From positions 310,001 through 374,000 of the forward strand of contig NZ_QZMN01000002.1 in assembly GCF_003702705.1 (NCBI RefSeq): 64,000 bases of DNA, read 5' to 3'. The first letter of the stretch is position 1, and each line of letters starts with the position of its first letter. A program made the translations under genes and the position numbers. The notes beneath the pieces are model-generated. The model was not told the DNA's origin. It saw only the letters and a program-made list of their open reading frames with translations, and searched no databases. Shown here piece by piece: positions 54,785 through 57,651 of this stretch. The DNA is from Ornithinimicrobium cerasi. GTDB taxonomy: Bacteria > Actinomycetota > Actinomycetes > Actinomycetales > Dermatophilaceae.

Positions 54785-55636
54785 ATGCCGTCACGCCCCG
54801 ACCCCCCGTCCTCCGCCCCCGCGTCCTCGCGCCTGCGCGAGGTGTCCCGGGCCGAGCTCGTGGCCACCGGCGGGAACGACCCCTGGCTGCGCTGGGCCGT
54901 GCCCGACCCCGTCCCCCACGCCCTGCTGCAGGACGGGGTCGCCGTCGTGCAGAGACGTGGGCACCGTCCGGGCTTCTGGGTGGTGCCGCTGCGGCCAGGG
55001 TCGCCGCCGGGGTCCCCGCCCGCCGGTGGGGCGCTGGCCCAGGAACGCGCCCGGGTGGTCACCGTCCTGCAGTCGTTCGTCACCGCCGGACTGCTGGCGG
55101 ACTGGGGCGCAGCGTCGGCGACGGTGCCGCAGGAGCACGCCACGGCGGCGCGCTCGGTCCTGCCCCTCACCGACCAGGGCGGTGACTGGGAGTGGATGTG
55201 GACCACCACCGCACCACGCCCGGACCCCCGGGAGGCCCGCCTGGTCGAGCTGGACGACCGCCGGGACGCCGAGGAGCTGCTCGCCTTCGCGCAGGCCCAC
55301 AACCCCCGCGTGTGGACCACTATCGGGGAGGGCCAGGTCGAGCGCTGGGTCGGGGCTCGCGGCGACCGGGGCGAGCTCGTGGCCGTCGGCGGAGCCGAGC
55401 TGGAGGCGACCGGGGTGCCCCACCTTGCCGGCATCCTGACCGCCACCCATGCCCGCGGTCAGGGCTGGGGAGAGGTCGTCTCCTCAGCCCTGACCCGTTG
55501 GGCGGTGGACCGCGACGGGGTGTGCACGCTCGGCATGTTCAGCGACAACGCGACGGCCCGCCGTCTCTACCGGCGGCTGGGCTACGTCACGGCGCGGGCG
55601 TGGCACTCGCGGATGCTCAGCCCTGGCGCGGGTTGA
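54785..55636 (+). CDS. GNAT-family N-acetyltransferase
   Basis: Protein of 283 residues. The second half is a GNAT domain: [22 protein letters not shown] carries the acetyl-CoA loop (RGQGWG) near 225, and [16 protein letters not shown] near 252 is motif B. The first half may be a degenerate GNAT copy. Substrate unknown. ATG at 54785 lies 9 bases after a TACCCT -10-like box (54770-54775), so the message may be leaderless. It converges on aspS with a 20-base overlap. Confidence 0.8.
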
Positions 55637-57443
55637 CCTCCTCCGCCCCCTGGGGGGCAGCCGCACCCTTCTCCGGCTCGGCGTCGACGCCGGCCTCCTT
55701 GCGCTGCTCGGCCGTGATGGGGGCCGGGGCCGCGGTGAGCGGGTCGAAGCCGCCGCCGGACTTGGGGAAGGCGATGACGTCGCGGATGGAGTCCGTGCCG
55801 GCCAGCAGAGCCACGATCCGGTCCCAGCCGAAGGCGATCCCGCCGTGCGGCGGCGCACCGTACTTGAACGCCTCCAGCAGGAAGCCGAACTTCTCCTCCG
55901 CCTGCTCGGGAGAGAGGCCCATCAGCCCGAACACGCGCTCCTGCACGTCCCGCCGGTGGATACGGATGGACCCGCCGCCGATCTCGTTGCCGTTGCAGAC
56001 GAGGTCGTAGGCGTAGGCCAGCACGGCGCCCGGGTCCGACTCGAGGGAGTCGACATACTCGGCCTTGGGCGAGGTGAAGGCGTGGTGCACCGCGGTCCAG
56101 GCGCCCGACCCGACGGCGACGTCGCCCGCGGCGACCGCCTCGCCGGCCGGTTCGAGGAGCGGCGCGTCGACGATCCAGAGGAAGCTCCAGGCGTCCTCGT
56201 CGATCAGCCCGACGCGCCGGCCGATCTCCAGGCGGGCCGCGCCGAGGAGGGCGCGCGAGGTCTTCGTCGGGCCGGCAGCGAAGAAGACGCAGTCACCCGG
56301 ACGCGCGCCCACGTGGGCGGCGAGGCCCTGACGCTCGCCGTCACCGAGGTTCTTCGCGACTGGTCCGCCGAGCTCACCGTCCTCGCCGACCGTCACGTAG
56401 GCCAGGCCCCTGGCGCCACGCTGCTTGGCCCACTCCTGCCACGCGTCGAACTGCCGCCGCGGCTGCGACCCGCCGCCGGGCATGACGACGGCACCGACGT
56501 ACTCCGCCTGGAAGACCCGGAACGGGGTGTCCGCGAAGTAGTCGGTGCACTCGGTGAGCTCGAGGTCGAAGCGCAGGTCCGGTTTGTCCGAGCCGTAGCG
56601 GCGCATCGCCTCCGCGTAGGTCATGCGCCGGAACGGCGTGGTCAGCTCGATCCCGCGGACCGCCCACACCGCCCGGGCGACGGCCTCGCCGAGCTCGATG
56701 ACGTCGTCCTGCTCGACGAAGCTCATCTCGATGTCGAGCTGGGTGAACTCCGGCTGCCGGTCGGCGCGGAAGTCCTCGTCGCGGTAGCAGCGGGCGATCT
56801 GGTAGTAGCGCTCCAGCCCGGCAACCATCAGCAGCTGCTTGAAGAGCTGCGGGCTCTGCGGCAGGGCGTACCAGCTGCCCGGCTGCAGACGGGCCGGGAC
56901 GAGGAAGTCGCGGGCGCCCTCGGGCGTCGACCGGGTCAGCGTCGGGGTCTCCACCTCGACGAAGTCGCGCTCGGCCAGGACACCCCGCGCGGCCGCGTTG
57001 ACCCGGGAGCGCAGGCGCAGGTTCTGCCCGGCGGCGTTGGCGCCGGGCCGGCGCAGGTCCAGGTAGCGGTGGCGCAGGCGGGCCTCCTCACCGACGCTGA
57101 CGCGCTCGTCGATCTGGAACGGCAGGGGTGCGGACTCGCTGAGCACCTCGATGTCGACCGCCACCACGTCGACGGCACCGGTGGGCAGGTCGGGGTTGAC
57201 GTCCTTGTCCGCGCGGGCGGTCACCTCGCCGACGACCTTGACGCAGTACTCGTTGCGCAGGTCGTGGGCGCTTCCGGTGAGGACCTCGTCGCGGGCGACG
57301 ACCTGGACGACGCCGCTGGCGTCACGCAGGTCGACGAACGCCACGCCGCCGTGGTCGCGCCGCCTGGCCACCCAGCCGGTGAGGGTGACGGTGGTGCCGA
57401 CGTGCTCGGGTCGCAGGGTGCCGGCCTCGTGCGTGCGAAGCAT
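55617..57443 (-). CDS. aspS: Aspartyl-tRNA synthetase
   Basis: Class II synthetase of 608 residues, bacterial type. The N-terminal OB domain (about 1-105) starts LRTHEAGTL. Motif 2 is [22 protein letters not shown] near 220. The bacterial GAD insertion covers about 290-420, and motif 3 is [15 protein letters not shown] near 535. The tail is Pro/Glu-rich. Whether it is discriminating or also charges tRNA-Asn is not decidable here. ATG at 57443 has GAGGAG 6 bases upstream. The leader carries a candidate T-box riboswitch. Confidence 0.96.
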
Positions 57444-57645
57444 GGGGTCTCCTCTCGGGTCGGTTCCGACAGGGACGGGTGCCCTGGCGGAGGGCAGCCC
57501 TGAAAGGTGTGGGCGGGGGCCAGGTCGCGGTGCCACCACACCTTCGCCGAGGAGTTCTCGGCCTCTCGTCGGTCCGCCGCACGCGCGGTGCACGGGCGGG
57601 CCCGCAGGTCCGGCGGGTCGTCACTCCGCCCCGTGCACGGGAGCC
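57444..57645 (-). ncRNA. Candidate T-box riboswitch leader of aspS
   Basis: The minus-strand leader shows the T-box core GGTGGCACCGCG (57537-57526). Its UGGC (57535-57532) would pair with the GCCA 3' end of tRNA-Asp (discriminator G). Upstream is a stem III-like hairpin GCCGAG/CUCGGC (57562-57546). A short stem I has its lower helix at 57638-57630 with 57596-57588, and its internal loop holds AGUGA (57625-57621) and GAC (57619-57617), an Asp codon as specifier. AAGGTGTGG (57543-57535) can also pair with CCACACCTT further down, giving an alternative structure. Uncharged tRNA-Asp would raise aspS expression. Confidence 0.75.
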
Positions 57646-57651
57646 AGTCTA
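57646..57651 (-). promoter_or_regulatory. Candidate -10 box for aspS
   Basis: TAGACT on the minus strand. Transcription from about 7 bases further would begin just before T-box stem I, so the leader would be about 195-200 bases. GTGCGA stands 18 bases upstream as a weak -35. Confidence 0.5.

Follow-up and report, generated by a model that had tools for sequence, protein, structure and literature searches.

The leader of aspS in Ornithinimicrobium cerasi reads as a tRNA-Asp-sensing T-box, and the step under its control is most likely the translation of aspS; we put the probability of this reading at about 0.88. We read it as a new T-box variant for this tRNA, probably acting on translation. 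The reading is carried by the identity of the T-box bulge and of the specifier, by the antisequestrator, by covariation in stem III and P1, and by conservation. The window, which is the whole analysed stretch of 64,000 nucleotides, encodes on its minus strand a bacterial-type aspartyl-tRNA synthetase (NF001750, 827 bits; TIGR00459, 682 bits), which is preceded on the same strand by a leader of about 200 nt (from about 57640 down to 57444). In 5' to 3' order the leader consists of P1, P1a, P1b, a conserved block, stem III and the antisequestrator with A1, the bulge UGGCACC and A2. All parts named in the initial annotation lie on the minus strand within 57444-57651: the T-box core GGTGGCACCGCG, the UGGC, the hairpin resembling stem III, the very short stem I, and AGUGA with GAC after it. 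The features are as follows.

55617 to 57443, minus strand: aspS, ATG start at 57443, assigned by protein profiles.
57646 to 57651, minus strand: TAGACT, a -10-like hexamer recognised by eye, which would put the transcript start near 57640.
57631 to 57638, minus strand: 5' strand of P1, GUGCACGG, pairs with 57588-57595 and closes the specifier hairpin.
57612 to 57630, minus strand: P1a, the ultrashort stem I, GGCGG, loop AGUGACGAC, CCGCC; a hairpin around UGACR.
57620 to 57622, minus strand: specifier GAC (Asp) with U and G on either side, complementary to the anticodon GUC.
57617 to 57619, minus strand: second GAC, the choice of the initial annotation, not the specifier.
57599 to 57611, minus strand: P1b, a hypervariable insert separating P1a from the 3' strand of P1; its length and sequence vary between leaders.
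57588 to 57595, minus strand: 3' strand of P1, CCGUGCAC, assigned by the strand-swap test of P1.
57567 to 57588, minus strand: conserved block CCGCGCGUGCGGCGGACCGACG, recognised by conservation, with a possible IIA/B-like pseudoknot drawn by inspection.
57546 to 57562, minus strand: stem III, in which three of six pairs are changed on both sides in the 30-sequence core alignment.
57536 to 57544, minus strand: 5' strand of the antisequestrator helix A1, AAGGUGUGG, from the core alignment.
57529 to 57535, minus strand: T-box bulge UGGCACC, conserved; its UGGC is predicted to read the 3' end of tRNA-Asp, which it fits.
57513 to 57528, minus strand: upper helix A2 (GCG/CGC) and loop, invariant in 30/30 core sequences.
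57504 to 57512, minus strand: 3' strand of A1, CCACACCUU, from the core alignment; by folding, the CCU in it is able to pair with the Shine-Dalgarno sequence.
57449 to 57456, minus strand: Shine-Dalgarno sequence GAGAGGAG, read from the sequence.

TAGACT or TAGAAT occurs near the same place in 18 of the 21 aligned leaders of the genus. A consensus promoter scan of the window leader revealed no site, and no intrinsic-terminator-like site was found in it. A GTG at 57593 opens an in-frame ORF of 658 amino acids (55617-57593, minus strand), which crosses the leader into aspS, so that an automatic gene caller might pick the wrong start for this gene.

The core motif GTGGNACCGCG has 31 matches in the genome and its reversed pattern 64; since the reversed control is the commoner one, the motif by itself is no evidence. 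The fold energy of the leader (57504-57640) is ordinary as well (z -0.94 against shuffles). It is the position and the conservation by which chance is excluded. At 19 of the 23 genus loci examined (L013-L035) and at 5/5 named Ornithinimicrobium/Serinicoccus loci (L043-L047, including three records identical to G017, G019 and G008) the core lies 89-111 nt upstream of aspS; it was found before aspS in none of 75 named loci from other genera (L048-L122). The core covariance model R2 detects exactly one copy per genome in 27 of the 32 genomes of the genus and no copy in G009, G013, G016, G021 and G023. In four of these five genomes (L032-L035) aspS starts with GTG and the core is absent from the leader. 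A T-box-type leader before aspS, as proposed in the initial annotation, is thereby confirmed as a real feature of the sequence. The Rfam T-box model RF00230 gave no match, neither at the window leader (1401 bases searched at E up to 1, and 321 bases at E up to 10) nor in the whole genome at E 0.001. According to the initial annotation the T-box was to be given up if the model match and the conservation in the aspS leaders of relatives were both missing. Only the match is missing, while the specifier (as UGACG) and UGGC are kept in 21/21 aligned leaders; hence the assignment stands.

Structural comparisons were made on 48 elements, which comprise 21 leaders of the genus (L013-L031, L044, L046), six further leaders of bacterial-type aspS (L155-L159 and L161, of which L158 belongs to the genus) and 21 leaders of archaeal-type AspRS genes. 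The second copy in genome G282 (L177, ORF broken by TAG), the repeats L178 and L179, and L185-L198 were excluded. The core alignment comprises 30 sequences and was scored without the pseudoknot; its helices account for 510 cells, of which 97.6% are paired, compared with 37-49% in slid controls; 33 cells are changed on both sides versus 11.0 ± 3.1 in shuffles, and the same is true for 5 pairs versus 2.2. All cells of A1 and A2 are paired. A1 contains two pairs changed on both sides; A2 never varies and is therefore uninformative with regard to covariation.

In the strand-swap test, for which 37 of the 48 elements could be used (in the other 11 the landmark string was not found), the own strands of P1 pair with -12.0 kcal/mol versus -9.4 ± 0.5 kcal/mol for swapped strands, and 0/500 swaps were as good. 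For the 21 elements of the genus the values are -13.3 versus -11.9 kcal/mol, with the observed value reached by the best of 500 swaps, and for the 16 elements from outside the genus -10.3 versus -8.3 kcal/mol, where the best of 500 swaps likewise reaches the observed value. The hairpin P1a is formed in 48/48 elements by 22 different stems of 3-7 pairs; at least four Watson-Crick pairs are present in 42 of the 48, versus a mean of 12 and a maximum of 20 when the 3' flank is shuffled. We infer a possible IIA/B-like pseudoknot in the conserved block; the score of a free pseudoknot search was matched in 298/480 shuffles, and its anchor was missed in some rows (e.g. L015, L031 and L162). A K-turn-like layout was seen by eye in L168 and its relatives and in none of the leaders of the genus.

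The initial annotation had named the GAC that follows AGUGA as the specifier, located in an internal loop. Both assignments had to be corrected; the annotation had also passed over the missing stem II S-turn, the closing helix P1 and the related elements before a second AspRS in other genomes. Of the 21 leaders, 15 have GAC at 57617-57619, 4 have GCC and 2 have GAU, and UGACG is kept in all of them, although the placement pattern itself required UGACG; therefore the overlapping upstream GAC at 57620-57622 is the specifier. The loop that carries it is apical, measuring 9 nt in 40 of the 48 elements and 6-10 nt overall. The proposed specificity for Asp was borne out by the GAC specifier and by UGGC, which fits the discriminator of the genome's own tRNA-Asp (anticodon GUC, anticodon loop CUGUCAC, discriminator G): the C of UGGC stands opposite G73. 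The gene of this tRNA (L153:1469-1544) adjoins tRNA-Glu, and its final CCA is not encoded, CCG being found instead. Across the 48 elements the specifier is followed by a purine (39 G, 9 A) and preceded by U, which stands opposite A37, both having been required by the search pattern. The base before UGAC, opposite C38, is G in 35, C in 12 and A in 1 of the elements. The loop sequence GUGACG would be able to pair with U33-C38 of tRNA-Asp by five Watson-Crick pairs and one G-U pair.

From this layout we infer binding of the tRNA, the direction of the response and control at translation. Uncharged tRNA-Asp would make two contacts by base pairing, one between its anticodon GUC and the GAC in the apical loop of the ultrashort stem I, the other between its unoccupied 3' end (G73-CCA) and the UGGC of the bulge. 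The latter contact would stabilise the antisequestrator and keep the 3' strand of A1 off the Shine-Dalgarno sequence, so that the synthetase is made. Charged tRNA would be unable to make the second contact; the Shine-Dalgarno sequence would be masked and translation would drop.

The folding data differ between the two groups of leaders. In the leaders of archaeal-type AspRS genes the 3' strand of A1 can pair with the Shine-Dalgarno sequence in 21/21 cases (e.g. CCUCCAGG with CCUGGAGG), and the predicted cost of opening the latter is 11.2 kcal/mol with this strand free and 4.6 kcal/mol when it is held (control difference 0.55 ± 1.3 kcal/mol in 100 shuffles of five leaders). In the window the opening costs are 10.1 kcal/mol without and 9.9 kcal/mol with the antisequestrator. 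The cost changes by more than 1 kcal/mol in 8 of the 21 leaders of the genus, the window not being among them. On another measure such a change is seen in 8 of 25 leaders of bacterial-type aspS. From this measure L159 and L161 (no recognised Shine-Dalgarno sequence) and L167, L169 and L175 (A1 string not found) were left out. When the fold is started at the A1 strand, a more favourable measure that was chosen after the opening costs had been obtained, pairing between A1 and the Shine-Dalgarno sequence is optimal in 14 of the 21 leaders of the genus and at most 3.1 kcal/mol from the optimum in 18, including the window (-26.8 versus -29.9 kcal/mol). The platform is longer in the window's genus than in the archaeal-type leaders. 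Masking that depends on A1 is predicted throughout the archaeal-type relatives and is less clear in the genus. Control at translation thus has good support in the former and is only likely for the aspS of the window.

The two modules by which T-boxes are known to grip the tRNA were not recognised. The stem II S-turn pattern was found in 0/48 elements versus 19/21 control loci (30 RF00230 loci, 9 of which were dropped because of an unreadable core); the pattern was modelled on ileS and recovered few of the matches with a long stem I either, being present in L185 and L187 only. Therefore, the limited space is the stronger argument against a stem II. From the specifier hairpin to the bulge there are 75 nt in the window and 49-50 nt in L167, L169 and L175, and this stretch must also house stem III and the A1 strand. 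These three are the shortest members, in which there is hardly room for the pseudoknot either. A long stem I with the elbow-binding double T-loop motif is absent, the specifier hairpin of the window being only 19 nt long, and no conserved motif was found in P1b among the leaders. On the sequence we read this combination, an ultrashort stem I and no stem II S-turn that can be recognised, as a structural T-box variant.

Related elements occur in other actinobacterial families. Model R1 identified elements in 23 of 396 genomes across the order, R2 in 23 of 394 across the class and, at a stricter E of 0.001, in 2 of 296 across the phylum, both of which had already been found; strict filters were used in these scans and weak matches were lost. 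Within the family of the window, four genera (g1, g18, g96, g98) have the short element before a bacterial-type aspS; it precedes an archaeal-type AspRS gene in families f9, f12, f14, f15, f16, f18, f41 and f52 as well as in three other genera of f1. In the other families the elements mostly stand before a second, archaeal-type AspRS (AspRS2), which is to be expected for a sensor of tRNA-Asp. All eight downstream proteins that were scanned (seven with the short element and one with a long-stem T-box) match NF003483 above the cut-off. The matches in f22, f29, f31, f33, f49 and f58 look by eye like long-stem T-boxes, mostly upstream of archaeal-type AspRS genes. The T-box L188, in another family, appears by eye to precede serS, with UCC as its apparent specifier.

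A set of 33 genomes was selected by presence or absence of the element. Of these, 20 encode an archaeal-type AspRS over the cut-off, and all 20 also contain the split match by which the bacterial type is recognised. No archaeal-type AspRS over the cut-off was found in nine genomes with the element on bacterial-type aspS, nor in four members of the genus without the element. In a tree of the cores the leaders of bacterial-type aspS and of AspRS2 are intermixed with low support. Genome G282 contains two copies of T-box plus archaeal-type AspRS gene, L174 (C1:42478-42574) and L177 (404187-404283), the second of which has a TAG inside the reading frame. That Actinomycetales can have extra AspRS genes has been described earlier (PMC4206432), and the excerpts of that paper which we used do not mention a T-box.

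A conserved coding sequence, i.e. an N-terminal extension of AspRS, or a chance motif in a G+C-rich genome could account for the pattern without any RNA switch, and the in-frame ORF across the leader as well as the frequency of the core motif alone would fit. The distance from the core to the start codon, however, falls in all three frames (10, 8 and 3 of 21 leaders), the helices covary, and the core recurs before a different class of AspRS, which leaves these explanations with a negligible probability. The coding extension in particular was ruled out, as the frame is not conserved among the 21 leaders. It is quite unlikely that the T-box of the genus acts outside translation initiation, on RNA stability or through Rho-dependent termination. 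This has to be considered because the predicted folds leave the Shine-Dalgarno sequence paired with and without the antisequestrator, as the nearly equal opening costs in the window and the masking in only 8/21 leaders of the genus indicate. Against it stand the lack of an intrinsic-terminator-like site in the window leader, the folds started at A1, in which pairing with the Shine-Dalgarno sequence is favoured or close to the optimum in most of the genus, and the AspRS2 relatives, which all look translational.

Another reading is a class III T-box of the usual kind, like that of Nocardia ileS, with a stem II and S-turn that diverged past recognition, e.g. in P1b or the conserved block. A short stem I and an apical specifier are indeed class III features in the excerpts of PMC10482949 used here, and the S-turn pattern, made for ileS, passed over most long-stem matches. 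Nevertheless, this reading is unlikely in view of the difference between elements and controls in the S-turn search, of the little room between hairpin and bulge, and of P1b being devoid of a conserved motif. Going beyond the T-box reading preferred here, we tentatively suggest, and regard as doubtful, a fifth T-box architecture which contacts the tRNA neither by the elbow nor by a stem II clamp and in which the codon-anticodon contact is lengthened beyond three pairs. The leader may in addition have moved between AspRS genes of the two types, the archaeal-type one being a second copy and the bacterial-type one the only AspRS of its genome. If it is true that neither known tRNA-gripping part is present, the leader would be a natural test of the minimal RNA for reading a tRNA, and with a conserved group of this kind the minimal requirement would be directly testable on small natural RNAs. 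Moreover, one kind of sensor precedes genes for two classes of AspRS, and regulators of an essential gene escape the T-box model of Rfam.

The following comparison draws on excerpts of the papers cited. There, the published T-box classes retain the elbow-binding motif, the stem II S-turn or both (PMC10482949), and class III, which has a short stem I, is described as requiring stem II (PMC10482949, PMC7583486). Within these excerpts the combination of a short stem I with no S-turn was not found described, provided that the absence of the S-turn holds. In the open-access full texts searched we recognised no description of an actinobacterial T-box for Asp; such elements may be listed in TBDB, for which Actinobacteria were scanned with a class II model of its own (PMC7778990). 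The aspS element resembles the class III T-boxes of ileS in Nocardia farcinica and Mycobacterium tuberculosis in its short stem I without elbow motif, the specifier in an apical loop, the likely sequestration of the Shine-Dalgarno sequence and the actinobacterial host (PMC10482949, PMC7583486). In contrast to these, its loop has mostly 9 nt instead of the described 5-6 nt, no S-turn was found, and it is specific for Asp. The lack of a stem II domain is shared with class II, e.g. glyQS of Bacillus subtilis, which unlike the aspS element keeps a long elbow-binding stem I, is glycine-specific and acts on transcription (PMC10482949). The T-box on a second AspRS and GatCAB in Clostridium acetobutylicum, set beside our element by description only, likewise controls an extra AspRS (via PMC4206432); it belongs to a Firmicute and reads two codons according to the cited title. 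The long-stem Asp T-boxes (L185, L187, L190 and others) share with the aspS element the UGGC antisequestrator, a GAC specifier by inspection and an AspRS downstream, but have a long stem I, and RF00230 finds 2/2 of those tested (L185 and L190, below the gathering score) versus 0/10 short elements.
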